64,000 nt of DNA from an uncultured bacterium. Its GTDB lineage: Bacteria > Planctomycetota > UBA1135 > UBA2386. Every line of letters starts with the position of its first letter. Within the stretch, counting starts at the first letter, position 1. The DNA lies in contig CALCZA010000114.1 of the NCBI GenBank assembly GCA_937906475.1, positions 80,024 to 144,023 on the forward strand, in the 5' to 3' direction. Below are positions 4,352-63,880 of the stretch, piece after piece. Under the pieces are notes generated by a model, which was not told the DNA's origin, searched no databases, and was given only the letters and a program-made list of their open reading frames with translations. The translations under genes and the position numbers were made by a program.

Positions 4352-4997
4352 GGCTGGGCTTCGGTCGGGGCGCTGGGATGGCTCCGCTGGGTCGATCAAA
4401 GTAGAACACCGTGGGCGGCGATGCCACAGGCGGGGCCCAGGTCCGGTCGGGTTCCTGGGTGGAAATCGCGCCTTTGGGACGTTCGCGCGGGACACTGGCC
4501 GCCACCGGAGCTGAGTAGGCCGGCTCGCAAGCGGGAATCGGTCGCCTTCTTTTGGTGCGGCAGGTAGTGCTTCAGGTCGACAGGCAAAGGCCTTCACGCC
4601 CTGGATTCGGGCCCAATTCATCCGCTCAGTAGCGTCACTGGTCGCTTGCCACGGACAGCGTGGTCGCACCGGCGGTCATTTCCAACGCTTACCGCATTCG
4701 GGTTGCTGCTTCAGACTGTTGTTGGTGGGCACGTGGCTTGGCGGTGAATAGATGCTTGCGACGGTGCGTCTCGCGAGGCGCGACTAAAGGCAGCGCCGCC
4801 AGCACCTTTACGGCCGCTCCGACCGCCTCGGGAGCTCGGCAGATTCGCGGCACGCAGGGTTTCGCATTCCCCGTAATTTTGCGGGAGCTAAATCCTTGAG
4901 TTCTTGGCTAGTGTTGGTCTCCGGGATTACTTCGCAACGGTGTGTTCGGGATCTCGCTCTCGGATGTTGAAATCCAGATTTTTAGACTTCCAAGAGT

Positions 4998-8464: not shown

Positions 8465-9448
8465 ATGAACACACGCTTTGCCACTGGCGCATTAGGTATG
8501 GCCATTTTCGCAACGGCGATGACGGCGCAGACGCAGCCATGCATTTCTGCCAACGATGCCAACAACAGCACGACGGGGGCGATCTCCTCTTTCTCGTTTG
8601 CCGGTCCCAATGGTCATGGCTGGCAGTTCACGCCAACCCAGACGTTGGTGCTGTTCTCGGCTGAGGTCTTCACCGAGAACCAGTTCTTGACGAACCGCGG
8701 CTTCATGACGCTGGAGATCTGGGACACGAACTTCATCTTCCAGCCGGGGCAACGGCTTGGCAGCGGCACGTTTGAAGTCGACCCGTCGCTCGGCCTTGAG
8801 TGGCACGGCGCCAACTTCGATGCACCGATCCCGTTGTTGTCGGGCCAGACCTATTGGTTCGTTTGGATTGAGCCGGGTGGCAGCGAATTGCCGATCGAGC
8901 CAGGTGGCATTACCGCAACCTACGTGAAGCGTTCGGGCAACAGTTGGTTGACCCAGCCGACGTCTACGGCGCCGAAGTGGCGTGGCTACTGCACGCAACT
9001 CGACAGTGCTGCGGTGGTGCCGGTTGGCTTTGGTTGTCCGGCCTCGACCGGTTCGCTGCCGGGCATGATGACGAACTACGAGCCGACGGTCGGCAACAGC
9101 GACTTCCAACTCGAAGCCTCAGGGTTCCTGCCGGGGACGATCGGCTTGGTGATCTTGGGCACGAACCCGGGCTTCGTCGGCCTGCCGGTGCCGGGCGCGC
9201 CGGGTTGCTCACTGGTCACGGATGCCTTGGCGACGTTTACGGTGGCCACCGGAACGGGCGACGAGGGATCCAACCAGTTTCCAGCCGGACCTGGATTCGC
9301 GGGGCACTGCGTCTTCCCGTTTGCCATCCCGGCGAACCCTCTGTTGAGTGGCACGGTCATCGGTTCGCAGTTCGCGATGTTGGATCTGGCGATCGGCACC
9401 CCGCTGCCGCTGGTGTTCAGCAACGGCCTACAGTTCACGATCCAGTAG
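8465..9448 (+). CDS. Secreted protein, hypothetical, with shared C-terminal segment (ends SNGLQFTIQ)
   Basis: Signal peptide MNTRFATGALGMAIFATAMTAQTQ; C-terminal FGCPAS...LSGTVIGSQFAMLDL...FSNGLQFTIQ resembles C-termini of the ORFs ending at 23748 and 26003. Confidence 0.7.
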   Translation: MNTRFATGALGMAIFATAMTAQTQPCISANDANNSTTGAISSFSFAGPNGHGWQFTPTQTLVLFSAEVFTENQFLTNRGFMTLEIWDTNFIFQPGQRLGSGTFEVDPSLGLEWHGANFDAPIPLLSGQTYWFVWIEPGGSELPIEPGGITATYVKRSGNSWLTQPTSTAPKWRGYCTQLDSAAVVPVGFGCPASTGSLPGMMTNYEPTVGNSDFQLEASGFLPGTIGLVILGTNPGFVGLPVPGAPGCSLVTDALATFTVATGTGDEGSNQFPAGPGFAGHCVFPFAIPANPLLSGTVIGSQFAMLDLAIGTPLPLVFSNGLQFTIQ

Positions 9449-19357: not shown

Positions 19358-21724
19358 CTAGACGTCACCGATCGACAACTCGAGACCATTCGAGGTGACT
19401 ATGTTGGCTGCGTTGATGTTCAGCGCTAAGACAGCCGACTGGTTGAACACCTTCGAGCCGACCAAGGTGACAGTGTTCGGGACCGTGAGCGGCGTGAAGC
19501 CAGTGCCACCGATGACTGGAATCGAAGTTGCCACCGTCAATTGTTGGTAGGCACGGCAACCAGGCATGCCGAGGAAGGTCAAGTCGATCCCGCCGATGAT
19601 TGGGTTAAGCGACAGGATCGACAAGGCCGCGACCGTCCCGGTGGGGACATTGGTCGTGAGCAGGGTGATGGTCGAGCCGAGAACCGGACGCGCTGTTGAG
19701 TTGAGCGTGACGTGCGGTGTGCCTGACGCGCCGTTGCAGACCGAAACGCTGCCGTTCAGGTTGGCTGAGATATCCATGCTGCCTGGGTTGGCTGCACCGC
19801 TGCCTAGCGAGAAGCCAACGAGATACGCGTTGCCACCCGAGGCCACCGATTGGTAGATGTAGTGGACATCACCGTTGGCCCAGAATTGGGCCTGGAACGT
19901 CGCCGTCGAGTTGCTGTTGTAGTACTCAACGCCGTTCCAGGTGATCACCACGCGGCTTGAATTGGCATTAACGTGAACGTCACCACTGCCAGCCTGGTTG
20001 GGGCTCAAATCGTGCCACATGGGGCACCAGCGCGTTGCATCAGCGAGCAGGTCGGCAACATCTGGAGTCCATGCAGTTCCGTTGCTTACCGTCGAGATGA
20101 ACCCGTTGGAGCACACGTGCAGGGTGTTGGCTGTGCCGCCCGGGTATGGTAGCGAGAACGGAATCGACTGTGCGACTTCATCATCATCACCAAGGGAGAT
20201 GACGCCACCCGACGGCGCAATCCAACTGCCTTGGCCGGAGACCAGTGAGTAGGACGTGCCATCGAAGTCGAGCGTGAGTGACGAGTTGCCAAGGTCGAAG
20301 CCGGGCGTTTCGTAGAATGCCTCGTCGCATGCGATGGCGGTTCCGCCACAGCCACTGCCGATCGCGGTAGACGTGGCCAACGTGCCGGATCCCGAGGTGT
20401 CGAGCGTCAATTGGCCAGTGCCGATCGGATCGAGCCAGTTTGATAGGCGGTTGGAGTTGCTGCCGCCGCCGGTCCACGACGTGCGCAGGCGACCGTACCA
20501 GTCGGACGCGTTGTTGCCACAAGCGGCACCGCCGCCGTGCAGTTGGCCGATGATGCGGTGGTCTTGGTCAAACAACGGCGAGCCTGACGAACCGGGTTCG
20601 GTCGTGCCGGTATCCCAGTCGACCACGCGCACGTGGTTGGCGTTGGCGTTCTGGGAGTTGCTGCCGTAGGAGGTGAACTGCACTGGAGCCGTCTCGAACG
20701 AGATCTTCTTGGAGTCACCGCTCGGGTGGTGGATGGCGACGGCCGAGGAGGCGGTCGCGGCGCTGCGGTTCCAGCCAGCGTAGGTGACGCCCCAGGCTGC
20801 GTTCGGCGTGCTGTTGAGTTCGACCAGCGTGAAGTCCGACGTGTTCCAGCCGGCACGCAGGGTCGAGCCGACCGTGAATTGGTTCAGCGGCGCGGAGTTG
20901 CTGCCGCAAGTTACGGCATCGTAGTTCCAATAGCAGACCAGCGAGCTAGCCTGTGACGAACCGACGCCACAGTGGTAGGCCGTCAGGAAGAAATTACGGC
21001 CATCGTTGGCCGTGTTGTTGATCATGCTGCCGCTGCAGAACAGCGAACCGCCGGTCGAGATCGCGGCGGAGGCGGAAATCTCACCCGCCCAACCAGCGCC
21101 CTGCGGGCAGTTGACGTCGACATTGCACGAGCCACTGCCGTCGTTGTTACTGAGTGCGGTCGCGCCGGCACCGAAGAAGCGGTAGCCGGAACCAATATGG
21201 CTCATGTTGAGCAGCAGTTGCGGCTTGAGTGCGGTTTGCACGTAGACCTCACAGATGATCCCGGCACCAATGACAACCGGAGTCCAGAACTGGCCGGTCG
21301 GTTGGTGGTCGGTGCTGTCGAACGGCCGCACGATGCTGCGGTAATCGGTGCTGTAGACCTGCATACGGGCACCGGCCGGCATGAAGAAGGCCGTGAAGCC
21401 AAGGTTGACGTGCTCGGCGTCCGGAGACTTGATGCGCAAGCGCCACAGGGACCAGTTGTCGTCGAGTTGCTCCCACGTGCCGTGCGTCAAAGGCGAGATA
21501 TTGACGGCATTCGGTACCGCATAGCGGGCCGGTTGGCCGTTGGCCGCGCGGTTCGTGTCTTCGATGGATAGCGTGTTGCGGTCCAGAATTGGAACGCCGT
21601 AGCTGGCGACCGTGCCAATGGGGAGGGCGTTTGGATGGATCCTGCCGACGGGTTGGGCCGTTTGAGCAAAGGCGGGAGAAACGAGAAGAACCGCCAGGAG
21701 AGCGGCAGGCGAGTGGCGATGCAT
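19358..21724 (-). CDS. Secreted lysyl-endopeptidase-like (trypsin-fold) serine protease with C-terminal beta-sandwich segments
   Basis: Signal peptide MHRHSPAALLAVLLVSPAFA; catalytic His (FLTAYHCGV), Asp (NTSDFTLVEL), Ser (EPGSSGSPLFDQ); ends ANIVTSNGLELSIGDV. Confidence 0.88.
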   Translation of the reverse strand: MHRHSPAALLAVLLVSPAFAQTAQPVGRIHPNALPIGTVASYGVPILDRNTLSIEDTNRAANGQPARYAVPNAVNISPLTHGTWEQLDDNWSLWRLRIKSPDAEHVNLGFTAFFMPAGARMQVYSTDYRSIVRPFDSTDHQPTGQFWTPVVIGAGIICEVYVQTALKPQLLLNMSHIGSGYRFFGAGATALSNNDGSGSCNVDVNCPQGAGWAGEISASAAISTGGSLFCSGSMINNTANDGRNFFLTAYHCGVGSSQASSLVCYWNYDAVTCGSNSAPLNQFTVGSTLRAGWNTSDFTLVELNSTPNAAWGVTYAGWNRSAATASSAVAIHHPSGDSKKISFETAPVQFTSYGSNSQNANANHVRVVDWDTGTTEPGSSGSPLFDQDHRIIGQLHGGGAACGNNASDWYGRLRTSWTGGGSNSNRLSNWLDPIGTGQLTLDTSGSGTLATSTAIGSGCGGTAIACDEAFYETPGFDLGNSSLTLDFDGTSYSLVSGQGSWIAPSGGVISLGDDDEVAQSIPFSLPYPGGTANTLHVCSNGFISTVSNGTAWTPDVADLLADATRWCPMWHDLSPNQAGSGDVHVNANSSRVVITWNGVEYYNSNSTATFQAQFWANGDVHYIYQSVASGGNAYLVGFSLGSGAANPGSMDISANLNGSVSVCNGASGTPHVTLNSTARPVLGSTITLLTTNVPTGTVAALSILSLNPIIGGIDLTFLGMPGCRAYQQLTVATSIPVIGGTGFTPLTVPNTVTLVGSKVFNQSAVLALNINAANIVTSNGLELSIGDV

Positions 21725-22110
21725 TGAGATGAGCTTGTGGCGGTGGTTGGGGGGGGCGACGATTATGACGGTGCCAAGCCCGGGTCAGGTTCCGTTGAGG
21801 TCGTTACCAGTGCGACAACGAGTAGTCGCTAAGACCCTGATTCTACTAGCACAAGCGTAACTCGTCGATGTGGGCCGCTGTGTGGTATGCGGTCGGGCGG
21901 GGCCCTTTACCGTGTTCCTAGGCCGGTTGCAGGTTGTCGGCGTTCGCCCAGGCGGCCTGTTCGCCCAATCACATCGGGGCTGGAGTCGGTTGCCCTGCAG
22001 GCTGTAGATCGAATGCGTCGGCCAGTGCGAAACGAGACAGATGCTCTGGATCCGGCTGGCCAGGGTCGCTTCCGCGCGCCTGGTCGCTACGGTGTTCCGC
22101 CCGATCGCTC

Positions 22111-23508
22111 ATGAGCTACCCCCAAGTCGTTCGCGTCTACAGTACTTACCAGGACCCCGACTATGAGTGTCCGTGGCAGAGCGTCGCTCCGCGCGGCAGC
22201 ACTGGATCTGGGGTCGTAGTCGGCCCCGGACGGATCCTGACGGGTGCCCACGTGGTGGCCAATGCCACCTTCGTGCAGGTTCAGAAGCAGAGCGATCCCA
22301 AGAAGGTCACGGCGCGCGTCTTGGCTATTAGTCACGACTGCGACTTGGCATTGCTTGAGATTGTCGACAAGTCGTTCGCGCGCGGCATCAAGTCATCCGT
22401 TGTCGGGGACTTGCCGAAGCTGCGCGATGCCGTTCAGGTGGTTGGCTATCCGATCGGCGGCGAAGAGGTGTCGATTACCGAAGGCGTCGTGTCGCGCATC
22501 GAGGTGCAGCGCTACGAGCACAGCCAGCGGCATCTGTTGGCGGTGACCGTTGACGCCGCGATCAACGAAGGCAACAGCGGTGGACCGGTGTTCGCGCGCG
22601 GCAAGATCGTTGGTATTGCGTTCCAGGCGATGCCCGATGCCGAGAACGTTGGCGAGATGGTGCCGGCGTCGATAATTCGTCGCTTTCTCGATGGCGTGAA
22701 GAAGAAGAAGCTGCCGGACGTTCCCGGCATTGGCATCACGACCCAGCCACTCGAGAACCCGGCGCTGCGCAAGTATCTGGGCATGAAGACGCGTGATAGC
22801 GGCGTGTTGCTGACGGCTGTGCAATACGGATCGAGTGCCTGGGGCAAGTTCGCCGAGGGCGATGTATTGATGGAACTCGATGGCCATCGCATCGCCGACA
22901 ACGGCACGATTCGCTACCGCGGCCGTCACCGTTGCCAGTTCGATGCGGTGATCGGCGACTACCACTGCGGAGACGTCATCAAGGCGCGTGTGTTGCGCGC
23001 CGGCAAGTCGAAGAACGTGGCGTTGACGATGCAGCCGATGAAGTGGTTGGTGCCGCGCACCGAGTATGACCGGCGTCCAATGTGGTTCTTGTTCGGTGGC
23101 TTGGTTTTCCAACGCCTGACCGCCGAGTACCTACGCAATTGGGGCGAGCACTGGTGGGACAAGGCGCCCAAGGAACTGCTGCACAGTTACTACCACGGGT
23201 TGCGCTTGCCTGAACAACAGGAAGTCGTCGTGCTGGCGCAAGTGCTCGCCGATGCGGTCAATGTCGGCTACGAAGCGTTCCACAATGACAGTGTGGCCAG
23301 CGTCAATGGCGTGCCACCGGTCGACATGCTCGACTTCATCAATCGAGTCGATAAGGCAACCGGTGATGTCGTCATCAAGTTGTCGAGCGGCTCCACTGTG
23401 CTGCTCGACGCCGATCATGCGCGGGAAGCGGAAACCAGGATCGTGGATCTCTACCACGTGCCAGGAGACCGTTCGGTCGATCTGCCCAAACGTCGCCGCC
23501 GCCGCTGA
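22111..23508 (+). CDS. Deg/HtrA-type serine protease with PDZ domains (resembles plant Deg9-like architecture)
   Basis: GSGVVVGPGRILTGAHVV, HDCDLALLEIVD, NEGNSGGPVFARGKIVGIAFQ triad; C-terminal WFLFGGLVFQRLTAEYL ... VVVLAQVLADAVNVGYE resembles the terminal PDZ-like domain of Deg9-type proteases. Start MSYPQVVRV at 22111; ORF open from 21934. Confidence 0.88.
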   Translation: MSYPQVVRVYSTYQDPDYECPWQSVAPRGSTGSGVVVGPGRILTGAHVVANATFVQVQKQSDPKKVTARVLAISHDCDLALLEIVDKSFARGIKSSVVGDLPKLRDAVQVVGYPIGGEEVSITEGVVSRIEVQRYEHSQRHLLAVTVDAAINEGNSGGPVFARGKIVGIAFQAMPDAENVGEMVPASIIRRFLDGVKKKKLPDVPGIGITTQPLENPALRKYLGMKTRDSGVLLTAVQYGSSAWGKFAEGDVLMELDGHRIADNGTIRYRGRHRCQFDAVIGDYHCGDVIKARVLRAGKSKNVALTMQPMKWLVPRTEYDRRPMWFLFGGLVFQRLTAEYLRNWGEHWWDKAPKELLHSYYHGLRLPEQQEVVVLAQVLADAVNVGYEAFHNDSVASVNGVPPVDMLDFINRVDKATGDVVIKLSSGSTVLLDADHAREAETRIVDLYHVPGDRSVDLPKRRRRR

Positions 23509-23747
23509 CGTGCCAAGGGCAAAGCTTCGCTGCGTTGATTCGCGCATGTCCCGCCTCGGCTTGGCTATATCGGTCGACGCGCACCTGCCGAGTTCGATCT
23601 ACCAGGCAGTGGCGATGCCCCGCGATTGTTGATGAACCGTGCCTTGGCGTTCACGAACCTGAAGAAGCTGAGGGCAGAGACGTCAGCTTCGTTGCGTTCC
23701 TGGACTGTGGCCACAACGCCGATCTTTCGGCGGTTGAGTCTCCGTAG

Positions 23748-26003
23748 CTAGAAGATTACCAGTTCGGTCGCGTTGCTAGTCGTGAACCCAGTCGCGGCAC
23801 CGGGATCCAATAAGAACGCCTGAGCGGTCAACGTCGATGGTGGCAACGTCGCCGGTAGTGCGAGCGGCACGTCGAAGCTGCCGTTGCCCGCACCATTGCC
23901 GTGCATGACGAACAACGGCAACGTGCCGAGTAGTGGTAACACGTGAACCGTGCATGGGCCAAGTGGCGCCGTTCCGACCCCCGTGCCAAGGCCTATCGTC
24001 GCGAGTGTTGCGCCAAGACCCTGAGACAACTGCAGCGTTACGACGCCACCTGGAGTTGGGCAGCCGTAGGTGCTCAGCGTTGGGGCGAATCCGCCCGAGC
24101 CAGCGCAACCGCTGCCGTAGAGGCTGCCGTGCGCGCCGTTGCCGAGGCAATCGCGATGATCGCTGAGCCATTCCACTGTCATCGCCGTGAACGCAATGCG
24201 CGAGTAGCCCGATGCCTCATACAACAGCCCGAGCCGATGCTCATCGGCGAGTGCGAGGCAGCTGTAGGCATAGAAGCCGACGTGGATCATTTTGGATTCG
24301 GTCCATGTGGCACCGTCGTCGTAGCTCAGATGCACCGTGCCGTTGCTGCGGCTGCCCTGTGAATTGGGGCCGGCGTAGGCGATGCGGTTGCGATAGCCGT
24401 CGAGCGGATCGGTGAAGCGCAGCACGCTCGCCATTACCTGCGGTTCGTTGAGCTTCGCATCTTCGCTCATGGGCATGAAGGTGGCGCCGCCGTTGACGCT
24501 GACCGCCGTCTTGCGATGGCGCGTGCCGCCGTTGCTGCGCGAGTTGAGTAGCACTGAACCATCGCTGCGTTCGACAAACTGTACTTCGTTACCTTGGCCG
24601 GGAGTCTGCGTGTCATCCACTAACGTGCCGTAGTTCCACGTGGCGCCGCCGTCATCGCTGAAGACGGCGTAATTCCACCAGTGACCCGAGGTGTCGAGTT
24701 GGTTGAACGGGAACAGGATGCGGCCAGCGTGCGGTGCGCGGCGTTTTTGGATGCCGATGCCCGGGCCACTTGCGACCGCTCTCGCCTGCGTCGGTCGCTT
24801 GACCTGCGCCGTGATCTCAACAGCTGGTGACCAGGTCAATCCGTCGTCGTCACTGTGCATGAGGAACGAACGGCAGATGTTGTTTCCGGTCAGGCCTGGC
24901 ACGACGCAGTTGGTGTGGCAGCCGGTCGGAAAACGTTGATACATCAGCAGCACTCGACCAGCGTTCGGCCCCGATTCAATCTGCACGCAGCACGGGTTGT
25001 TGAGGCTGTTGGTGCCGTCGTCGTGCAATACCTGCAGTGCATTCCAGGTCTGACCGGCATCGGTGCTGCGTCGCAACACCATGTCGTTCTGAGAGTGGTC
25101 GTTGAGGCTTTGCCGGCCTTCGGCGAACGCTAGCAGCACCCCGGATTGCGTGCGCAGTAGTGCCGGAATACGAAACGCTGGGTAGCCGTTGCCGCCAAGG
25201 AAAACATCGGTCGCCGCTGGTTCCGTTGGGGGTGTGACTACTGGATAACGAGCCAGTAGATAGCCCTCAATGTCCTGTTGTTCGCTCGTCGTCAGTGCAC
25301 GCGAGTAAACCAGCATCTCAGCGATGTCGCCGATCAACGCATTGCCAAGCGTGTAGCGCGCGCCAAGCGTCAGGCCACCCCATGGCGTGATAGCGCTTGG
25401 GCCTGCATAGATCGATGTGCCGTTGACGAAGTGCTCGAGTTGGCCTGCGGCAAACGTCACGCTGTGCACCTGGAACACGTCGTGATCGACGCTTGGCCCA
25501 GTCGCTGCCGCTCCCGCGTAGGTGTGCCACTGGTTGAGGCTGGACGTCTGGCCGGTGAAAACCGCGTTGCGATTGGTGGCGGCCGTGCCGTCAAATACGT
25601 AGCCGCCATCTGCCGAGCGCACCCGTGCCACGAAGAACACCGTTTTTGCGCCGGCTAGCGTGCCGAACTCGTTGCTGTCGTTCGACCAAAGATAGTCGTT
25701 ACCGTCGAACTCGACGGCTGGTGGGCGATGTGTTTTGCCAAGACGGAACGTCGGTTGGCGCAGACTGCTTGCGTCGGCGCGCACGAGGTCGCGCTGGTTG
25801 CTTGATAGGTCATCCCATCGCACGACCGCGCTGCCGTCGATGGGAGTCATCAGCGAACTGACTCCTTGCCATGCTGCATACCATGCGTAGAGATCGGCGT
25901 GCGCGGCATCCGGTTGCCCGTTCGCCGCGAGTAACCCCTGGCCACGCAGGATTCCTCCCATCGCGGCGATCACTAACGCGCACAGCCAAATCGAGACCCG
26001 CAT
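23748..26003 (-). CDS. Secreted sialidase-like (BNR/Asp-box) protein with LamG domain and shared C-terminal segment
   Basis: Start MRVSIWLCALVIAAMG (26003). FRIPALLRTQSGVLLAFAEGR (FRIP motif) plus Asp boxes RSTDAGQTWN, HSDDDGLTWS, SDDGGATWN, SYDDGATWT; C-terminus GSGCAGSGGFAPTL...TTSNATELVIF. Confidence 0.9.
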   Translation of the reverse strand: MRVSIWLCALVIAAMGGILRGQGLLAANGQPDAAHADLYAWYAAWQGVSSLMTPIDGSAVVRWDDLSSNQRDLVRADASSLRQPTFRLGKTHRPPAVEFDGNDYLWSNDSNEFGTLAGAKTVFFVARVRSADGGYVFDGTAATNRNAVFTGQTSSLNQWHTYAGAAATGPSVDHDVFQVHSVTFAAGQLEHFVNGTSIYAGPSAITPWGGLTLGARYTLGNALIGDIAEMLVYSRALTTSEQQDIEGYLLARYPVVTPPTEPAATDVFLGGNGYPAFRIPALLRTQSGVLLAFAEGRQSLNDHSQNDMVLRRSTDAGQTWNALQVLHDDGTNSLNNPCCVQIESGPNAGRVLLMYQRFPTGCHTNCVVPGLTGNNICRSFLMHSDDDGLTWSPAVEITAQVKRPTQARAVASGPGIGIQKRRAPHAGRILFPFNQLDTSGHWWNYAVFSDDGGATWNYGTLVDDTQTPGQGNEVQFVERSDGSVLLNSRSNGGTRHRKTAVSVNGGATFMPMSEDAKLNEPQVMASVLRFTDPLDGYRNRIAYAGPNSQGSRSNGTVHLSYDDGATWTESKMIHVGFYAYSCLALADEHRLGLLYEASGYSRIAFTAMTVEWLSDHRDCLGNGAHGSLYGSGCAGSGGFAPTLSTYGCPTPGGVVTLQLSQGLGATLATIGLGTGVGTAPLGPCTVHVLPLLGTLPLFVMHGNGAGNGSFDVPLALPATLPPSTLTAQAFLLDPGAATGFTTSNATELVIF

Positions 26004-27862
26004 TAGTTCTGGATGAGGATCTGGTAGGCGTTCGATAAGCGAAACGGCAACGCCGTGGTTTGGCTTGGATCGAGGCAAAGCCATTGGGCGAATGCTTCGA
26101 CGCCCAGCAGCATCGGGTTGGCTGGTAGCGGCAACAGGAACGACGAATTGCCCAAGTTGTCGGCGATCGTCAAGATGCTAACGTCGTTCGATTGCAGCAG
26201 CGTGCAGCCTGCCGGTGCGCCGATCAGGCCGACGTCGAGCGGCAAGGGCCCAAACATCGACGTCGTACTGCTGAACCCGGTAAACAACACCGCGATGTTG
26301 TTGGGCGTGCCGCTGCTGAGTTGCAGCGTGGTTCCGGAGCCAATCACCGGGCGTCCCGTAGCTTGGATTTCTGCACCGAGGCAGCCCTGTCCATAGGCGA
26401 GTCGTACCACCGATTCCCAACTCGAACCCATCCGGATTTCGTCGAGTTCGATCCGGTTGTTGCCAGTCGGCGTTAGCCACAACGTGGACATGTCCGCGTT
26501 GGAAGCGTAGCCGGGTGACTGTGCTGTCCACTGATTCGCGCCAGTGCCTACCGTCGTGATACCGGCGTCATCTGTCGGCACGTTGGCGCCTGGTGCGAAT
26601 ACCTTCAGAGACGCCACATCGATTGCGCCGGATTCGATGCGCAGCACACAGAAGTAGTCGGTGTTGGCCTGCATGACCTCAGCGCCAGTGGTTGCCCCGA
26701 CGCCACCAACAACCCAGTTGCCGGTGCCATCCCAACCAAATAGGCCGCGCGTCGCGCCGCTGTCCGTGAACTCGAGCAACGCGCTCTCAATCGCGGCATT
26801 GCTGTCTTCTCGGCGCAGCGTGCAACTCAGGTAGTAGGTGCTCGCCTGCGTCAAGTCCCAGCGATCGGAGAAACTTCTGCCAGCGCGCGCCGACGTCTCA
26901 CTGACGATCTTATTGCCGTCCGGAATGATGCCGTTGCTGAGCAGGGCCGAGTTCACTAGGTTGCCGGTCGCCACCATCGGCCCGACTGGCACTGTGGTTC
27001 CGGCGAACCCTGCTGGTGGCAGGCTACCCTGCGCCAGCAACGCAACATCGGCTGCGGTCAATGGTGAGGCCCAGATCGCGAGGTCATCGATCAAACCGTC
27101 GAAGTACCACTGCGGTCCGCCCGAGTCGACGTTGCGACCGATTGACATCGAGTCGAGGTCGAACACGTAGCGGAAGAATCCTTGGTGTCGCGTGTCGACG
27201 GCGACGCCGTCGATGTAGAGCGTCGTCACTCCGTTGCCTTCCGATACGGAACACATGTGGTGCCACGTGCCATCGTTGATTGTCGTCGCGGTGAACACTT
27301 GCTGATACGAGTTCAGGTCGCCGCGCACATCGAACCAAGGCTTGCCGTTTGATAAACTCAACGCGATTTCATGCGATGGATCCGAGCTGTCCGACGCGCC
27401 GAGCACCGTCAGTGCGCTGCCCGTTGAGGACTTCAACCAAACGGCAATGGTCCCGTGGTTGAGGTCGGCGTATTTACTGAGGTGTTGGGTCAAGTCGACG
27501 TGGTCTTGATTGGCTGCGACCAACGACAGCGACATCGTCGACCACGCGGCGATGGCCGATGGCACATCGACGCTGTAGGTGGGGCCGTTGTTGATGCCGT
27601 GACTTTGCATTGGACCGACGTCGATGACGTCGTTTTCGAATTGCCACCAACTGCCCAGTGCAACCGGGTGGTTGGCATCGACACCTAGCCAGGCACTTGC
27701 CCAGTTGGCGCCGGCATCTTGACCGTGCAACGCGACGGGTGCCGCGCCGTAGGGCACGGTGTCGATGGTGCGAAGGTTCTGGGCACCGATCGCCGGGGTG
27801 AGGGAGAGGGCGAGGGCTAGCAAGGCACTTGGTTGCCACGGCAAGAACGAGAGCGAAGGCAT
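26003..27862 (-). CDS. Secreted LamG-domain protein with shared C-terminal segment
   Basis: Start MPSLSFLPWQPSALLALALSLTPAIGAQ (27862); INDGTWHHMCSVSEGNGVTTLYIDGVAVDT is a LamG motif; C-terminus YGQGCLGAEIQATGRP...RLSNAYQILIQN. Stop and next start overlap as TAATG. Confidence 0.85.
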   Translation of the reverse strand: MPSLSFLPWQPSALLALALSLTPAIGAQNLRTIDTVPYGAAPVALHGQDAGANWASAWLGVDANHPVALGSWWQFENDVIDVGPMQSHGINNGPTYSVDVPSAIAAWSTMSLSLVAANQDHVDLTQHLSKYADLNHGTIAVWLKSSTGSALTVLGASDSSDPSHEIALSLSNGKPWFDVRGDLNSYQQVFTATTINDGTWHHMCSVSEGNGVTTLYIDGVAVDTRHQGFFRYVFDLDSMSIGRNVDSGGPQWYFDGLIDDLAIWASPLTAADVALLAQGSLPPAGFAGTTVPVGPMVATGNLVNSALLSNGIIPDGNKIVSETSARAGRSFSDRWDLTQASTYYLSCTLRREDSNAAIESALLEFTDSGATRGLFGWDGTGNWVVGGVGATTGAEVMQANTDYFCVLRIESGAIDVASLKVFAPGANVPTDDAGITTVGTGANQWTAQSPGYASNADMSTLWLTPTGNNRIELDEIRMGSSWESVVRLAYGQGCLGAEIQATGRPVIGSGTTLQLSSGTPNNIAVLFTGFSSTTSMFGPLPLDVGLIGAPAGCTLLQSNDVSILTIADNLGNSSFLLPLPANPMLLGVEAFAQWLCLDPSQTTALPFRLSNAYQILIQN

Positions 27863-55024: not shown

Positions 55025-55163
55025 TGACGAAGATCGTCGCCGGGTCTTGGTGGTCACGCTGCGATAGGCGTCGCAGCGGGACTGGCGTGACGTGTCTTTG
55101 CTCCCTTGGTCAGGGAGTTCGTTTTTTGCGACTGCTGTCGGGCGGTCCGAGGGATGCAGCGCA

Positions 55164-56117
55164 ATGAATGCGGACGCTCACGCTAGTGGCGACGACGGTG
55201 AATCGCACGGGGATAGGCCCCCGTTGCACTTGCCGGTGTTGCTGCAGTCAGTGTTATCGATCCTCGAACTCCGCTCTGGACTCGTGGTCGTTGATGGAAC
55301 GGTTGGAGCTGGTGGTCATGCGGTAGAGATATCGCAGGCCATTGGCCCTGACGGTGTTGTGGTTGGAATCGATCGTGATCGGGAGATCCTGGTCGCGGCG
55401 CAAGAAGCTTTGGCGGACGCCAAGGATGCCTGCGCCGGGGCCAGTTTCTCTCTTCACCATTCTGCTCACGCCAGTATGCGCGAGGTCCTGTTGGGTGCCG
55501 GTCAGCCCCAATGCGATCGCGTGCTCCTCGATCTGGGAGTGAGTTCCCTACAGTTGGACCAACCCGAACGAGGGTTTTCCTTCATGGCCGACGGGCCGCT
55601 AGATATGCGAATGGATGCGAACGCGCCACTGACAGCAGCTCAGTGGTTAGCGAAAGTGTCCGAAGTCGACTTGGCGAACACGCTCTACCAATTGGGGGAA
55701 GAGCGGTTCAGCCGTCGCATTGCTCGACGCATCGTCGAGGAGCGGTATCGTACGCCAGTCGTTCGCACCCGTCAGCTCTCCGAGTTGGTGGTGTCCGCCC
55801 TGCCTGGCAATAAGAGGCATGGCCGTATTCACGCCGCAACCCGCACGTTCCAAGCGGTGCGCATGGCGGTCAATGACGAGATGGGTGAGCTTGAGCGCGG
55901 CATGCAAGCAGCGCTCGACAGTCTTGCACCTGGCGGCCGTTTGGTCGTGATCTCGTTTCACTCCATTGAGGACCGGTTCGTGAAGCACTGGATGCGCGCG
56001 AACATGGACGTCGTTACCAAGAAGCCGATTATCGCGACGCCGGCAGAAGCTAAGCAGAACCCGCGTTCGCGCAGTGCCAAGCTTCGTTGTGCAGTCAAGC
56101 CGGAGGTTGCAGCATGA
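55164..56117 (+). CDS. rsmH: 16S rRNA (cytosine(1402)-N(4))-methyltransferase
   Basis: LHLPVLLQSVLSIL, VVDGTVGAGGHAVEI, VVGIDRDREIL, CDRVLLDLGVSSLQLDQPERGFSFMADGPLDMRMD, GRLVVISFHSIEDRFVK. Confidence 0.97.
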   Translation: MNADAHASGDDGESHGDRPPLHLPVLLQSVLSILELRSGLVVVDGTVGAGGHAVEISQAIGPDGVVVGIDRDREILVAAQEALADAKDACAGASFSLHHSAHASMREVLLGAGQPQCDRVLLDLGVSSLQLDQPERGFSFMADGPLDMRMDANAPLTAAQWLAKVSEVDLANTLYQLGEERFSRRIARRIVEERYRTPVVRTRQLSELVVSALPGNKRHGRIHAATRTFQAVRMAVNDEMGELERGMQAALDSLAPGGRLVVISFHSIEDRFVKHWMRANMDVVTKKPIIATPAEAKQNPRSRSAKLRCAVKPEVAA

Positions 56118-56368
56118 AGTGGCTCATTGCAGGGTTGTTGTTCGCGTTAGCTGTTGGTCTCGCCGTCGGCACGGCTGGGATTCGCGCCGAGAACGTCGTG
56201 CTTCGCCGCAACATCGAGAAGCAATACCGCGCCATTAACGATCGCCAGAAGGAACTCGATCGCTTGTGGTTCCAGCGGCTGCAGGCAATCTCTCCAGAAC
56301 GCCTGGCGGAGATGCACAATCAGTGGCTGCAGAGGGAAGGCCAGCGCCGCCAGGGTCGCGTGCAATGA
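56114..56368 (+). CDS. FtsL-like small bitopic membrane protein
   Basis: ATG overlaps rsmH stop (ATGA). One TM then coiled coil (ENVVLRRNIEKQYRAINDRQKELDRLWF) in ftsL position. Confidence 0.7.
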   Translation: MKWLIAGLLFALAVGLAVGTAGIRAENVVLRRNIEKQYRAINDRQKELDRLWFQRLQAISPERLAEMHNQWLQREGQRRQGRVQ

Positions 56369-58461
56369 AGGCTGGCGAACTGCTGCGAATCCGCGTCGCC
56401 TTCGGTGCGCTGGGCCTGGTGCCGGTCTTCCTAGCTGGTTGGCTCGGCTGGTTGCAGGTATTGCAGGCAGGCACGATTGATCGTCGCGATGGCACGCCGG
56501 TGCCGCTGAGTGCGGTGACTGCTGATCGCCAAGGTTGGAGGACCGAGGCGATCCCGGCACCGCGAGGCACGATCGTTGATCGCAATGGTGCGACGCTCGC
56601 CTCTGATCGCGCAACTTATGAGGTGCGTGCGAGCATTGGCGCGCCGAGGAAGGTGCGCCAGGACCTGACACTATTCCGCCCGTGGGTGGCGCGTCTCGTC
56701 AATCGTCTCGGGTTGGCGTTGGTTGCCGACCCGGACATGGAAGGGCGCGACGTGCTCTTCGAGAAGCACAAGAAGCGCCTGACGGCGGCGGCGAATCGCG
56801 CCTGGCGGATCAATGAGTTGCCCGCAGTTGGTGTCTGGCCGACTACGCACAGGCGCACTGCCGACTTCTTAGTCTCCGTTGGTGTCGATCGCCTCGCGGT
56901 GATCCATGCGTTGCGTGCCTATGACATGAGTGCGGCGTACCCGACGCTGTCGATGCAGTTCATGCACGGCTTTCGCCGCGTGTATCCCGATCGTGAATTG
57001 ACCCATGGGATCGTCGGCCACCTCAATTCGTTCAGGACGAACCTGCCCAGCGGTGGCGTCAAGCTAGAGACTGTTGGGGTTGTCGGGTTGGAGTCGTTTG
57101 TGGCTCTCGAGCCGCAGGCTGGCGGTAAGCGGCGCTTTCTCGCTGACGGCCTCAGTCGCCCATACTTCGCCGCGCTGGTCGAGAACGCGCCCGAAGGTGC
57201 GGTGCTGCACTCAACCTTAGATCTCGAACTGCAGCGCGCTGCTGTGCGCGAGTTGACGGCTAAGTGCGAAGAGGGGCTGCACAACAGGAAGGGTGAATAC
57301 GCCAAGTGGGGTGCTCTGACTCTCGTCGAGATTGCCACTGGCGATGTGCTGGCGGCGGCTTCGTGGCATCGCGGTGATGCGCCGGCGCAAGCGCGCCCGT
57401 TCGCTCCGTACCAGAACCTGTTTGAGCCGGGGTCGATCGTCAAGCCGCTAGTCCTCAGTTATGCGCTTGAGGTTGGCGCTCTCGACTGGGCGAAGGAATA
57501 CGACTGCAATCCAGGTCACGCCACCTACCGCGAAGTGATTCGTAGCTTGGGTCGGCGCAAGGCCGTTCGTGATGACCACAACTGTGGCTTGTTGACGCCG
57601 CACGGCATCATCGTCAACAGCTCCAACATTGGCGCCGCGTTCATTGGCTTGCAGTTGACGCGCCCGCAATGGCAGGACTACATGCTGGGCTATGGCTTTG
57701 GCCAGTCGCTCGGTCTCAACCTTCCTGGCGAGTCACGCGGTGGCAATCACCATCGCTCGTTCGCCGCCGACATAAACATTCGATCGTTTCGCGCCAATAG
57801 CGCCATCTCATTCAGCTTCGGCTACGAGATGACGGCGACCGTCATGCAAGTCGCGCGTGCTTACATGCGCATGTTCCGCGGCCTCGGTGCAGAGTTGCGC
57901 TTGGTTAAGGCGCTCGAACTCAATGGCGAGTGGTGCGATGTGCCGGTCAAGCTAGATACCGGTCCGCGCTACCGCCCCGAAGTTGTCAACGCCATTCGCG
58001 AGGCTATGGCGGACGTTGTTAGTAACGACTCACATGCAACCGGGCGCTTCGTGCATCAGCAGATGCTGAAGGAAACCGGCGTAGACCTGCAAGGTCTCGT
58101 GGGTGGCAAGACCGGTACCGCAGTGAGTCCAGTTCGCTTGCTTGATGGTTCGAAGGCAACCATGCGCAACGCGAGCTTCGTTGGGTTCTTGCCTGCGGAC
58201 AACCCGCGTTGGCTTGCGGTGTGTGTTCTTCAGAGCGATGTTGTTTCGCGATTCTATGGTGGCAGGTATGCTGCTCCCCCAGCAGTAAAGCTGTTGCTCC
58301 AATGCCAAAAGCAATTGGAGCGGCAGTCCATGCACCAGGCATCGCAATTACGTTCGGGTGGTCAGACCCGGCACGCTCCTTCGGGAGTGGATCTTCGATC
58401 ACCTGGTTCTTCAGGCTGGAGCGCGTCGGTTGGGACCGGCGTTTCCAGGGATACTCGTTAG
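56365..58461 (+). CDS. ftsI: Division-specific class B penicillin-binding protein (FtsI/PBP3-like)
   Basis: ATG overlaps previous stop (ATGA). TM; APRGTIVDRNGATLASD; EPGSIVKPLVL (SxxK), NSSN (SxN), GGKTGTAV (KTG). Confidence 0.92.
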   Translation: MKAGELLRIRVAFGALGLVPVFLAGWLGWLQVLQAGTIDRRDGTPVPLSAVTADRQGWRTEAIPAPRGTIVDRNGATLASDRATYEVRASIGAPRKVRQDLTLFRPWVARLVNRLGLALVADPDMEGRDVLFEKHKKRLTAAANRAWRINELPAVGVWPTTHRRTADFLVSVGVDRLAVIHALRAYDMSAAYPTLSMQFMHGFRRVYPDRELTHGIVGHLNSFRTNLPSGGVKLETVGVVGLESFVALEPQAGGKRRFLADGLSRPYFAALVENAPEGAVLHSTLDLELQRAAVRELTAKCEEGLHNRKGEYAKWGALTLVEIATGDVLAAASWHRGDAPAQARPFAPYQNLFEPGSIVKPLVLSYALEVGALDWAKEYDCNPGHATYREVIRSLGRRKAVRDDHNCGLLTPHGIIVNSSNIGAAFIGLQLTRPQWQDYMLGYGFGQSLGLNLPGESRGGNHHRSFAADINIRSFRANSAISFSFGYEMTATVMQVARAYMRMFRGLGAELRLVKALELNGEWCDVPVKLDTGPRYRPEVVNAIREAMADVVSNDSHATGRFVHQQMLKETGVDLQGLVGGKTGTAVSPVRLLDGSKATMRNASFVGFLPADNPRWLAVCVLQSDVVSRFYGGRYAAPPAVKLLLQCQKQLERQSMHQASQLRSGGQTRHAPSGVDLRSPGSSGWSASVGTGVSRDTR

Positions 58462-58468
58462 GCGGTTC

Positions 58469-60046
58469 ATGACTGATTTGGCTTTCCCATCCGGACTCCC
58501 GTCCGGTCAGGGGTTCGTTCGTTTACGTGAACTTCGCGACTGCTTGCAGCCGCGTGACGTAATGCATTGGCGCGACCTGGCAGTGGACGGATTGGCGTTC
58601 CACTCGGCCGAAGTGCGTCCCGGCAATCTGTTCTTCGCAATCCGCGGCACCAAGAACGATGGCACGGTGTTCGCCCAACAAGCAATTGCGCGCGGCGCCG
58701 TCGCTGTGGTCGCGGATCAACCGTTGTCGTTGTCGGTGCCGGTGTTGGTCGTCGACAACGTGCGTGAAGCGTTGGCGGATGCGGCGCGCTTTTACTACCG
58801 CGATCCGTCGAAGGCGATCTCGGTGGTTGGCGTGACCGGAACCAATGGCAAGACCACGACGGGTCATCTGATCCGCGCCTGCCTGCAGGCCGATCGTCGC
58901 CAAGTTGGTTTGATCGGAACGATCGCCTACGAGTTTGGTGGCCGTCGCATTCCGGCGTCTAACACGACGCCTGATCCGGTGCGCATCCACGGTTACTTAC
59001 GCGAGATGGCAGATCGTTTTGCCAGCGCGTGTGTGATGGAAGTGTCGAGCCACAGTCTCGACCAAGATCGTGTGCGTGGCGTGCACTTCGCCGTCGCTGT
59101 GTTCACGAACCTGTCGCAGGACCACCTCGACTACCACGGCAGCATGGAGTCGTATCTGCAGGCCAAGGCGCGCCTGTTCCGGTCGCTCGGTCCGGGGGCG
59201 ACTGCGGTGCTTAATCGCGATGATCCGGCGTCGATGATGATGGCCGAGGAGTTGGTGACCGGCGTCAACATCATGTGGTACGGCATTTCGCCCGAAGCCG
59301 ACATTCGCGCCGAAGATGTCCGACCTGGCCCCGACGGCACGCGGTTGCGCATCGTCATGCCCAATGGCGCTGCCGAGTTGTTCTTGCCGATCGTCGGTTC
59401 GCACAACGTCGAGAACGCGTTGGCTGCTGCCGCGACGGCGTTGGCGCTCGGCGCCAGTGAGTTGACGGTTGCCTCAGCGCTCGAAGATGCGCGCGCGGTT
59501 CCCGGTCGTTTGGAATTGGTCGAACCACCGGGTGGCTTGATGCGTGGCGGACGTGTGCGCACGTTCGTTGACTACGCCCACACGCCCGATGCGTTGGATA
59601 AGGTCTGTGCGACGTTGGCGGAAGTCTGTGAGGGTGATCTGCACGTTGTGTTTGGTTGCGGTGGCGATCGTGATCGCACCAAGCGTGCACCGATGGCGCA
59701 GGCTGTTGCTCGTCACGCGCGCTACGCCTATCTGACCAGCGACAACCCGCGCAGCGAAGACCCGGCTCTTATCATTCGCGACATGGTCGATGGACTCGGC
59801 GCCGAAGGCGTGGATCCGATGGTCGGCGAAGGCGCAGAGCGTTCGTGCGATCTCTTTGAGGTGATTGATCGAGCCGAGGCAATTCGTCTCGCATGTCGTC
59901 AGGCCAAGCCTGGCGATACTGTCTTGATCGCGGGTAAGGGTCACGAGACCTACCAGGTGTTCAAAGACAGCGTGATTCCGTTCGATGACCGTCTCGAAGC
60001 AGGGCGTGCGTTGGCGGCAAGGGAGGCCGGATGGTTGCACCGATGA
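58469..60046 (+). CDS. murE: UDP-N-acetylmuramyl-tripeptide synthetase
   Basis: VVGVTGTNGKTTTGHLI, MEVSSHSLDQDRV, FVDYAHTPDALDKV, FGCGGDRDRTKR, TSDNPRSEDP, AGKGHETYQ. Confidence 0.96.
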   Translation: MTDLAFPSGLPSGQGFVRLRELRDCLQPRDVMHWRDLAVDGLAFHSAEVRPGNLFFAIRGTKNDGTVFAQQAIARGAVAVVADQPLSLSVPVLVVDNVREALADAARFYYRDPSKAISVVGVTGTNGKTTTGHLIRACLQADRRQVGLIGTIAYEFGGRRIPASNTTPDPVRIHGYLREMADRFASACVMEVSSHSLDQDRVRGVHFAVAVFTNLSQDHLDYHGSMESYLQAKARLFRSLGPGATAVLNRDDPASMMMAEELVTGVNIMWYGISPEADIRAEDVRPGPDGTRLRIVMPNGAAELFLPIVGSHNVENALAAAATALALGASELTVASALEDARAVPGRLELVEPPGGLMRGGRVRTFVDYAHTPDALDKVCATLAEVCEGDLHVVFGCGGDRDRTKRAPMAQAVARHARYAYLTSDNPRSEDPALIIRDMVDGLGAEGVDPMVGEGAERSCDLFEVIDRAEAIRLACRQAKPGDTVLIAGKGHETYQVFKDSVIPFDDRLEAGRALAAREAGWLHR

Positions 60047-61605
60047 AAGGTGTCTTAGGCCAGGACGCTGTCGCATCTTCAGCCGGTGAAGAAGGTGGTG
60101 CGTTGGCTCGGATAGCAGCAAGTACACGGCCTGCACGTGGGTGGTTTACCGCCCGCTCGGTGGCCAAGGCCGTTGGCGGCGAAGTTGTGCAAGGTGGCGC
60201 GACCGGCAATGGCGTCAGCACCGATACGCGTTGCGATTGCACCGGGCAGGTGTTTGTCGCGCTGCGTGGCGACAACCACGATGGTCATCGCTATCTCGAT
60301 CAGGCCTTGTCGCAGGGTGCCGTTGGTTTGGTGGTGGACCGCGAGTTTGATCTCGATTCGTTCCTGCAGGCGGTCATGGGCGCTGGCCGCGTCAGCGGTC
60401 GGCGTGAACCGTTCATCGTGCAGGTCCAAGAGACCGGCCAAGCGTTGATGGATCTGGCCGCCGAACACCGTCGCCGCCATCGCGCGAAGGTTGTCGGTAT
60501 CACGGGTTCGTGCGGCAAGACGTCGACCAAGGAGTGGCTCGGAGCGGTGTTGTCGTCGGTGATGCCTACAGTGCGTTCGCCCGGTAGCTACAATAACCAG
60601 ATTGGCGTGCCGTTGACGTTGTTCCAGTTGCAAGCGGAGACGCGTGCGGCGGTAGTCGAGATCGGCACCAACGCCCCCGGCGAGATTGCGCAGTTAACCG
60701 CCATCGCGCGTCCCGACATTGGCATCGTGACCTGTGTCGCCGCGGCGCATCTTGAAGGCCTCGGATCGCTCGATGGTGTGGCTCGCGAGAAGGCTGCGTT
60801 GGTGCAGGGACTGCCAAAGAATGGGCTTTGCATTCTGAACGGAGATGACGCTGCGTGTCGCGCCATGGCGCAATTGACTTCGGCTGATGTCGAGTTCATT
60901 AGCGTCAACCGTGAGACCGATTGGTTTGCCACCGACGTGCAGTTCCACGTGCTCGGCACGACCTTCTTGCTGCAAGGTTCGCGGCCAGTGACGCTGCCAC
61001 GGCTTGGCACGCACAACGTCTACAACGCGTTGGCTGTGATTGCCGCTGCTCATCGTCTTGGCGTTCCTGAAGAAGTGGTTCTGCGGCAGTTGGGTTGCGT
61101 GCCGTCCGCGGCGCGCCGACTCGAACCCAAGACCGCTGGCGGCGTGACGATCTTTGACGACACATACAACATGAACCCCGAGTCGGCGCGCTCTGCGTTG
61201 CAGGCGATGGCCGGGTTGCGTTCTGGGGGTCTCGACGATGCCGGCCAGCGTGGCCGTTCAATCGCCGTCTTCGGTACGATGCTCGAACTCGGCGCGGACA
61301 GTGTCATGCTGCATCGCCGCTTGGGCGAGCAGGTGTTCGCTAGCGGTCAGGATCACTTGATCTGTGTTGGCCCGGATGCTCATGCGATCGCCGAGGGTGC
61401 GCTTGCCGCTGGCATGCGCAAAGCTTCGGTCGAATGCGTCGGTGATATTGGCGCGGCGCACACGTTGTTGCGTGGTTTGCTCCGTCGGGGCGATCGCCTG
61501 CTGTGCAAGGCTTCGCGGCGTGTCGCGCTCGATCGCCTCGTCGACCTGTTGTTGGTCGACCTGTCTGCTGGTGATGCCGATGGCAGCGCGGAGGCCGGCA
61601 GCTAA
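60043..61605 (+). CDS. murF: UDP-N-acetylmuramoyl-tripeptide--D-alanyl-D-alanine ligase
   Basis: ATG overlaps murE stop (ATGA). GVSTDTRCDCTGQVFVALRGDNHDGH, GITGSCGKTSTKEWL, SPGSYNNQIGVPLTLF, DDTYNMNPESARSAL. Confidence 0.95.
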   Translation: MKGVLGQDAVASSAGEEGGALARIAASTRPARGWFTARSVAKAVGGEVVQGGATGNGVSTDTRCDCTGQVFVALRGDNHDGHRYLDQALSQGAVGLVVDREFDLDSFLQAVMGAGRVSGRREPFIVQVQETGQALMDLAAEHRRRHRAKVVGITGSCGKTSTKEWLGAVLSSVMPTVRSPGSYNNQIGVPLTLFQLQAETRAAVVEIGTNAPGEIAQLTAIARPDIGIVTCVAAAHLEGLGSLDGVAREKAALVQGLPKNGLCILNGDDAACRAMAQLTSADVEFISVNRETDWFATDVQFHVLGTTFLLQGSRPVTLPRLGTHNVYNALAVIAAAHRLGVPEEVVLRQLGCVPSAARRLEPKTAGGVTIFDDTYNMNPESARSALQAMAGLRSGGLDDAGQRGRSIAVFGTMLELGADSVMLHRRLGEQVFASGQDHLICVGPDAHAIAEGALAAGMRKASVECVGDIGAAHTLLRGLLRRGDRLLCKASRRVALDRLVDLLLVDLSAGDADGSAEAGS

Positions 61606-62735
61606 TGATCCATTGGTTGGCGCCCTACTTGTTCTCGGATGATATTTGCCGATTCCTCGGCTACATCTCTGTCCGGGCTGGGGGTGCCGCCGTAACGGCG
61701 TTCTTGTTGTGCCTCGTGATTGGCCCGATGGTCATTCGTTGGTTGTCGCGACAAGGCGTCAGCGAGCGCCTCGACGGCACCGGTTCGCAGCGGCTCGAAG
61801 AGCTGCATAAGGACAAGATCGGCACGCCGACGATGGGCGGCCTGTTTGTGATTGGCTCGATCTTGTTGTCGGCGGCGCTGTGGCTGCGGTTCGATGGCGT
61901 CAATCGTTACTCGTTGCCAGCGATCGTGCTGATCGGTGGCTTTGCCGCAGTCGGATTTTGGGATGACTGGGTCAAGCTGAAGCAAGGTCAGTCAGGCGAG
62001 AAGAAGCGCGGCATCACCAAGCGTGAGAAGCAAGGTGCGCTGACGATCCTGGCGCTATTGGTTGGCCTGTGGCTACTTGGCCCCGCTGCATTGCAGTCCG
62101 GTCAGGGCGGCCCGCACCTCTACATCCCGTTCGTCAAAGACTTCGGTGTCAACCTGAGCGTCTGGTGGGGCGTGCCCTTCTTAGTGATGGCGGTGGTCGT
62201 GCTTACTGGCGCGGCCAACGCGGTCAACTTGACCGATGGTCTCGACGGACTCGCCGCCGGGTGCGTGGCGACCTCGGCGATTGCTTACGCGGCGATCACC
62301 TACGCGGTCGGCCGGGTCGACTGGTCCGAATACCTGTTGGTGCCGCACGTCGCCGGTGCTGGCGAGATGGCCGTGTTGATGGCGGCTTTGCTCGGCGGCA
62401 CGTTGGGCTTCTTGTGGTTCAACGCGGCGCCCGCGCTGGTCTTCATGGGCGATGTTGGCAGCCTTGGCTTGGGCGGGGCGCTTGCCTACGCGGCGTTGAT
62501 TAGTCGCACCGAACTCGTGCTCTTCGTTGTCGGCGGCGTTTTCGTCGTCGAAACTGTGTCGGTGATCCTGCAAGTCGGCTCGTTCAAGATGCGCGGCAAG
62601 CGCATCTTCCGCTGCGCGCCGCTGCATCATCACTTCCAATTTGGTGGCATGCCTGAGACCCGTGTCGTGGCACGCGCGTGGATTGTCTCGGCCCTGCTCG
62701 CCATGTGCAGTCTCCTGCTCTTCAAGGTGAGGTAG
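61605..62735 (+). CDS. mraY: Phospho-N-acetylmuramoyl-pentapeptide-transferase
   Basis: TAATG overlap with murF. HKDKIGTPTMGGLFVIG, GFWDDWVKL, NAVNLTDGLDGLAAG, FMGDVGSLGLGG, CAPLHHHFQFGG. Confidence 0.97.
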   Translation: MIHWLAPYLFSDDICRFLGYISVRAGGAAVTAFLLCLVIGPMVIRWLSRQGVSERLDGTGSQRLEELHKDKIGTPTMGGLFVIGSILLSAALWLRFDGVNRYSLPAIVLIGGFAAVGFWDDWVKLKQGQSGEKKRGITKREKQGALTILALLVGLWLLGPAALQSGQGGPHLYIPFVKDFGVNLSVWWGVPFLVMAVVVLTGAANAVNLTDGLDGLAAGCVATSAIAYAAITYAVGRVDWSEYLLVPHVAGAGEMAVLMAALLGGTLGFLWFNAAPALVFMGDVGSLGLGGALAYAALISRTELVLFVVGGVFVVETVSVILQVGSFKMRGKRIFRCAPLHHHFQFGGMPETRVVARAWIVSALLAMCSLLLFKVR

Positions 62736-62740
62736 TCAGC

Positions 62741-63880
62741 ATGACTGCGATCCCACGACGAACGGCGGCGAACACCAAGTCCTCCGATCATGTGCGCGAA
62801 CTCGACTGGCTGATGCTGGTCGTGATGGCGCTTTGCTGCCTGGGCATGGTGATGGCGGTGTCGGTGCGTGGCTCGCAGATCGAAGCTGGGCCGATGGCCG
62901 TCATGAAGACGCAGGGCCTGAAGCTGTTGATGGGCCTAGTGGCGTTCATGTTTGCGGCGTTGACGCCTATTCGGCTTATCCGTCGTGTGGCGATCCCGCT
63001 GTTCTTGTGCTCCGTGGTTGCCTGCTTGCTGCCACATGTCTTCAACAGCTCATCGCACGGCGCCGCTCGGTGGATTCGCGTCGGTAGCCAGCAATTCCAG
63101 CCAGTAGAGCCAGCCCGTTTTTTCTTGGTGTTGGCGGTGTCTTGGTTGTTGGCGCGCGCTGGCACCGGGTTGTCGAGCTTCCGTCGCGGATTTTTGCCGG
63201 CGATGGGTTGTGCAACGTTGCTGGCACTCGCGCTCGCGACCCAACCTGATAACGGTAACGCGTTGCTCGCCGTGATGCTGGCCAGCTGCATTGCGCTGGT
63301 GGCTGGAGTGCGCTTCATGCACTTTGCGCCGTTCGCGGTGTCGGGGCTTGGCTTGATGGTCTTGCTGGCGACGCAGCACGATTACGTGCGTCGCCGCATC
63401 GAAGACCTATTCCAGACCACGCCAGACTCGCAAGTCGGACTCGGCTTGATTGCCGTCGGATCCGGCGGCACCTTTGGCCGCGGCCTCGGCCAGGGCTGGA
63501 TGAAGATGAATTACGTGCCGGAAGCGCACAACGACTTCGTATTCGCGATCATCGCGGAGGAATTCGGTTACCTGGGATCGTTGTTCGTGCTCGGCTCGTA
63601 CACGATCTTCGGGTATGTGTGTTACCGACTTGTTCGACAAGTTCGGGATCCATTCTTGCGTTACGTCGTGTGCGGCTATGCTCTAATGGTCTGTATGCAG
63701 GCGGCTGTGAACCTACTCGTGGTCAGCGGGTGGGCGCCAGCCAAGGGTATTGACTTGCCGTTCGTCTCGACGGGCGGAACGAGTCTTGTGTTTTGTTTAG
63801 CGGCGGTGGGTTTGATCGGTAACGCAGTGCGCGCAGATCGCGCCGGGTCGTTCCGTACCGCCGACGAAGTGGTTACTTGA
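62741..63880 (+). CDS. ftsW: SEDS-family cell division protein FtsW
   Basis: Polytopic; QPVEPARFFLVLA, ATQPDNGNALLAVMLA, FGRGLGQGWMKMNYVPEAHNDFVFAIIAEEFGYLG, LPFVSTGGTSLVFCLAAVGLIGNAV. Confidence 0.92.
   Translation: MTAIPRRTAANTKSSDHVRELDWLMLVVMALCCLGMVMAVSVRGSQIEAGPMAVMKTQGLKLLMGLVAFMFAALTPIRLIRRVAIPLFLCSVVACLLPHVFNSSSHGAARWIRVGSQQFQPVEPARFFLVLAVSWLLARAGTGLSSFRRGFLPAMGCATLLALALATQPDNGNALLAVMLASCIALVAGVRFMHFAPFAVSGLGLMVLLATQHDYVRRRIEDLFQTTPDSQVGLGLIAVGSGGTFGRGLGQGWMKMNYVPEAHNDFVFAIIAEEFGYLGSLFVLGSYTIFGYVCYRLVRQVRDPFLRYVVCGYALMVCMQAAVNLLVVSGWAPAKGIDLPFVSTGGTSLVFCLAAVGLIGNAVRADRAGSFRTADEVVT

Follow-up and report, generated by a model that had tools for sequence, protein, structure and literature searches.

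The window analysed here is a stretch of 64,000 nucleotides from contig CALCZA010000114.1 (assembly GCA_937906475.1) of an uncultured planctomycete, and the element in question is a C-terminal domain shared by four of its predicted proteins, which differ in their N-terminal modules. The likeness of the four C-termini had been noticed in an earlier examination of the DNA without database searches (hereafter the sequence-only reading), in which they were taken for a possible sorting or anchoring domain. The open reading frames (ORFs) of the four proteins were read in the window, where they lie at the positions given in that reading, and the C-terminal strings quoted for them match exactly. The carrier proteins and their domain copies are listed below; the E-values of the domain copies refer to a profile built from the copies of other genomes.

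8465..9448, + strand: carrier protein (ORF) with a signal peptide, a weak DUF4082-like N-terminal part and the C-terminal domain
9056..9445, + strand: C-terminal domain copy 1, on the hypothetical protein 8465-9448; E 8.8e-12; own-genome match G000:C114:89082-89468
19358..21724, - strand: carrier protein with a signal peptide, a Trypsin_2 protease (Pfam PF13365, E 2.1e-11) and the C-terminal domain
19361..19723, - strand: C-terminal domain copy 2, on the trypsin-like protease; E 1.1e-11; also an own-genome profile match
23748..26003, - strand: carrier protein with a signal peptide, a LamG-like region, a BNR sialidase propeller (BNR_2, E 2e-21) and the C-terminal domain; probable start ATG at 26003
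23751..24095, - strand: C-terminal domain copy 3, the most divergent, on the sialidase; E 5.4e-6; AlphaFold pLDDT 89
26003..27862, - strand: carrier protein with a signal peptide, Laminin_G_3 (Pfam PF13385, E 2.5e-20) and the C-terminal domain; the 27862 end is the likely start
26006..26371, - strand: C-terminal domain copy 4, on the LamG protein, with a YGQGC lead-in from 26395; E 2.9e-26; AlphaFold pLDDT 92, seven strands

The DUF4082 match in the N-terminal part of the 8465-9448 protein (E 3.9e-4) is under the Pfam cut-off. A paralogue of this protein, with the same C-terminal domain, is encoded on contig 137 (L055).

The last ~115-130 residues of the four proteins align (over about 125 residues), and the domain is about 110-125 residues long. 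The profile built solely from the copies of other genomes matched all four window proteins (E 2.9e-26 to 5.4e-6) and gave zero matches against 200 shuffled C-termini, which bears out the homology of the shared segment. In correction of the sequence-only reading, the segment as a whole forms a single folded domain and is not a set of short motifs. With a profile of the four window copies, 61 sites were identified in the host genome at E<=1, and with one built from 38 members, 87 sites at E<=0.01. Profiles were required, since a single-sequence search was too weak and yielded only one other copy (E 5e-4). This poor yield is a point in favour of a chance or low-complexity resemblance of the C-termini; such an origin was, however, ruled out by the profile searches, the independent profile and the shuffled controls, and is regarded as refuted.

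The C-terminal part of the four window proteins was not covered by any Pfam or NCBIfam model, and comparison of the 38 members with all models of both databases left the domain without a match. A sequence search of the PDB with the domain gave nothing significant, its consensus had no match in plasmids, and no description of it was found in the literature searched. The domain family is new to the resources searched, while its kind, a C-terminal immunoglobulin (Ig)-like tag, is known from Bacteroidota.

The copy on the LamG protein was modelled with AlphaFold, using 27 aligned sequences, as a seven-strand Ig-like beta-sandwich (pLDDT 92, pTM 0.85). Its strands occupy residues 15-20, 28-34, 41-47, 79-84, 91-96, 107-115 and 125-134 of 137, and the last strand reaches the C-terminus. 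A similar all-beta sandwich was predicted for the sialidase copy. A Foldseek comparison with the PDB returned only generic Ig-like matches (TM-score 0.4-0.6, 10-20% identity), the best of which were SoxZ, transglutaminase and leukocyte-receptor Ig-like domains; these share the beta-sandwich with the domain, but no common context. The C-termini consist of soluble strand sequences with an SNGLxxTIG-like ending and have no transmembrane (TM) helix with a basic cluster. These results agree with the earlier proposal of a folded domain without a TM or Arg tail, and the predicted sandwich is Ig-like, as in the C-terminal domains (CTDs) of type IX secretion substrates. Where the sequence-only reading had allowed for an absence of other members, for unrelated structures or for a match to a known catalytic or binding domain, other members were found, the two modelled copies proved similar and no such domain was matched.

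The most conserved columns are Pro (96%), Gln (93%), Ser/Thr (93%) and two Gly (91% and 88%), followed by Asn/Asp and Asp. Conservation is concentrated in the final hairpin, in which the Gln, the Asp and the Ser-Asn are located. An [FY]G.GC start had been recognized in three of the window proteins; the protease, too, has both of the domain's cysteines (VCNGASG ... GMPGCRAY), so that the Cys pair is present in all four and not in three. Among the host-genome copies, the cysteines of [FY]GxGC and PGC are both present in 47, both absent in 18 and found singly in 16 (p=1e-6), and the corresponding numbers for other genomes are 35, 12 and 5 (p=2e-7). All five sampled copies of family f3 (L069-L073) are without either cysteine (GAPGN-like and FGTPG-like sequences), with the remainder of the domain kept. 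Because the two cysteines tend to be gained and lost as a pair, the simplest reading of this covariation is that they would form a disulfide. Such a probable bond and the compact sandwich are what might be expected of a folding or stability cap, i.e., a C-terminal Ig-like domain shielding secreted proteins from proteolysis, with no receptor involved. We consider a cap unlikely, as it explains neither the near-invariant polar Gln and S-N of the last hairpin nor the strict C-terminal placement, and as close homologues manage without the domain.

The host genome (4.85 Mb) contains about 87 copies of the domain. An iterated search over the fetched loci gave 88 domain-bearing ORFs, 87 of them stop-terminated; of the latter, 81 have only 0-5 residues between the domain and the stop codon. 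The front modules of the carriers are unrelated and comprise FG-GAP and kelch propellers, RCC1, subtilases (S8), M14 carboxypeptidases, sulfatases, di-haem peroxidases (CCP_MauG), multicopper oxidases, CotH and others, to which the window adds trypsin, sialidase and LamG. A strict signal-peptide pattern was found in 54 of 76 complete carriers, compared to 15 of 35 other window genes (p=0.006); this pattern is crude, and export of the carriers was judged by sequence pattern only. A lenient signal-peptide scan was discarded for lack of discrimination (68/76 carriers, but also 28/35 controls). Many copies, a C-terminal position and unrelated, apparently exported carriers are the marks of a C-terminal sorting domain. 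The sequence-only reading had named dozens of copies on signal-peptide proteins as the support to look for in a profile search, and such numbers of copies, on diverse and apparently exported proteins, were obtained both in the host and in more Planctomycetota. Two loci, L047 (ORF at 4936, minus strand) and L109, bear copies that look broken or read through (in-frame TAG; usual stop lost), and are possibly decaying carriers or assembly errors.

Matches to the domain at E<=1e-4 were detected in 54 of 294 Planctomycetota genomes. In the host's order, 20 of the 21 sampled genomes were positive at this threshold, and in the other (G030) a broader profile detected five copies, which brings the order to 21/21; several families beyond this order were also positive. 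Three relatives of the host carry at least 127, at least 93 and at least 134 copies, these being lower bounds because no more than 150 candidates were scored per genome. When contigs from 84,980 species were scanned with a single narrow peptide pattern, 17 loci emerged. Almost all belong to records labelled Planctomycetota, and the others to bacterial bins without classification and to one bin labelled as an uncultured proteobacterium; given the narrow pattern, this is no proof that the domain is absent from other groups.

The relation of the domain to its carriers can be seen in the sialidase. Homologues of the catalytic part of the window protein were found in 29 genomes. The window sialidase is the sole domain-bearing copy among the loci examined, and the 28 homologues elsewhere in the phylum are without the domain, nearly all of them, those of the domain-rich genomes G155 and G112 included, stopping within a few residues of the catalytic propeller. 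Since homologous sialidases do without it, the domain is separate from the enzyme; it is an optional add-on and not part of the sialidase.

Like type IX CTDs, the domain is predicted to be a folded seven-strand Ig-like sandwich, and it is placed C-terminally on many unrelated, apparently Sec-exported proteins. Type IX CTDs have the same general fold, and it has been proposed that they are recognized primarily through their last two strands (PMC4804311, PMC10202324); the RgpB CTD also resembles the modelled domain in its long final strand, which reaches the C-terminus (PMC4804311). These likenesses favour a very diverged true type IX CTD served by a type IX machine, an explanation that we nevertheless hold to be highly improbable and largely refuted. 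None of the 38 members has a sequence or profile match to the type A (PF18962, TIGR04183) or type B (PF13585, TIGR04131) models. In addition, the domain is longer (110-125 residues versus roughly 70-100), has a long loop between strands 3 and 4 (LPLDL..GAPGC) as well as the Cys pair, and carries Gln and S-N where type IX CTDs have conserved lysines. PF18962 gave nothing in the host genome or in the listed members of its order, with a positive Bacteroides control. The type IX machine was not detected in the host genome either, in searches for SprA, PorP/SprF and C25 that were performed without a positive control genome: SprA_N was found in 0 of 294 genomes of the phylum; PorP_SprF was absent from the host's order and had no match in 14 control genomes; and C25 peptidases (the PorU family), which were found in 145 of 288 genomes and in none of the 14 controls, were missing from the host genome and from both of its nearest relatives, though these carry many copies of the domain.

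In the PEP-CTERM/exosortase and GlyGly-CTERM/rhombosortase systems, too, many unrelated exported proteins of a genome share a single C-terminal tag. There, however, the tag is a short tail that contains a TM helix and a basic cluster, whereas the domain is soluble and folded. The host genome encodes one exosortase (G000:C161:18783-19544, PF09721 E 4e-42), and the host may have a separate PEP-CTERM-like system as well.

The reading that we favour, though with little more belief than doubt, is that the domain is a lineage-specific folded C-terminal sorting or surface-retention domain, which would be read by a common partner. It is suggested by the many copies, the unrelated fronts, the near-absolute position at the protein end, the conserved last hairpin and the absence of the domain from homologous enzymes; the enrichment of signal peptides, the confident Ig-like models, the pairing of the cysteines and the presence in the whole sampled order count for it too. 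Several observations weigh against it. The always-C-terminal placement predicted in the sequence-only reading applies to the great majority of copies but not to a minority: two host copies extend 34-38 residues past the domain, and three host kelch-repeat proteins (L059, L117 and L120) bear a divergent copy directly behind the signal peptide. In other genomes, the domain is near the N-terminus or internal in some carriers (L080, L091, L139, L142 and L148). The placement rule is strong, but not absolute. Moreover, two domain-rich genomes (G155 and G112) have secreted sialidases without the domain. The sequence-only reading had predicted that a particular secretion or processing gene would co-occur with the domain, but no such gene was found among the five families tested (exosortase, GspD secretin, SprA, PorU-like C25 and PorP/SprF). 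The frequency of exosortase is about the same in genomes with the domain (23/54) and without it (88/240), and its presence is thus uncorrelated with the domain, unlike in the case of PEP-CTERM substrates. GspD-like secretins occur in 30 of 30 genomes tested, whether the domain is present or not, and are uninformative for this reason. In favour of the sorting reading, clustering of the neighbours of the host-genome carriers brought out no recurring gene family, which is what a single machine with many dispersed cargoes would lead one to expect. It is the lack of a partner among the families tested, together with the N-terminal location of some copies, that keeps our preference for a sorting domain so slight.

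The same observations make a surface-, matrix- or glycan-binding module the main rival. In this case the proteins would leave the cell by general export (e.g., type II secretion), and the domain would attach them to polysaccharide of the cell itself, to its S-layer or to particles. Ig-like folds often bind ligands, a Deinococcus S-layer chain and a porphyran-binding carbohydrate-binding module (CBM) are among the weak fold matches, GspD-like secretins are present, and the N-terminal placement in the kelch proteins suits a binder better than a C-terminal signal. The domain also resembles CBMs and other Ig-like accessory domains in being a C-terminal accessory beta-sandwich on secreted enzymes. 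It differs from CBMs in that none of the 38 members matches a Pfam CBM family, in its nearly always strict C-terminal end and in its conserved polar hairpin. Furthermore, non-glycan enzymes (proteases, carboxypeptidases, cytochrome peroxidases) carry it as much as glycan enzymes do, and the structural matches are merely generic. On balance, a binding module seems to us possible, though rather doubtful.

If the domain is instead a sorting domain, its action could be pictured as follows. The carriers would leave the cytoplasm by means of their N-terminal signal peptides, and their C-terminal ~115 residues would then fold in the periplasm into the seven-strand Ig-like sandwich, usually locked by the [FY]GxGC-PGC disulfide. 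The last hairpin would give all carriers a common face, with the near-invariant Gln and the conserved Asp on strand 6 and S/T-N/D-A/G on strand 7, which ends at the stop codon. A common partner in the outer membrane or at the cell surface might read this face, and export the protein and/or hold it outside. The recognition face, the partner and the outcome (export, anchoring or both) are what we infer from the features described above. More broadly, it is conceivable, although we would not yet count on it, that in several Planctomycetota lineages roughly 90-130 cargoes per genome are recognized by their C-terminal Ig-like domain, through an undescribed machine for outer-membrane export or surface anchoring that would do the work of type IX secretion with unrelated parts.

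The placement of enzymes outside the cell is poorly known in Planctomycetota, and one domain on about 90-130 proteins per genome offers a handle on it. The domain marks a probable surface proteome for annotation and is a ready reporter tag, while its pattern of presence and absence can guide a search for the partner machine through phylogenetic profiling.

Some minor observations concern individual carriers and the window itself. The N-terminal placement in L142 and L148 resembles that in the host kelch proteins. L080 and L091 (family f44) are very long proteins in which the domain lies mid-protein and is followed by about 500 or more residues. In the window, the stop codon of the LamG gene overlaps the ATG of the sialidase gene in the sequence TAATG (26001-26005); this ATG, with its first base at 26003, is the most likely sialidase start. 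Because of this stop/start overlap, the two genes, both domain-bearing, are probably translated together. Finally, positions 55092-63880 contain, as read from the sequence, an ordinary cell-wall cluster (mraW-, ftsI-, murE-, murF-, mraY- and ftsW-like genes), which is notable for a planctomycete.

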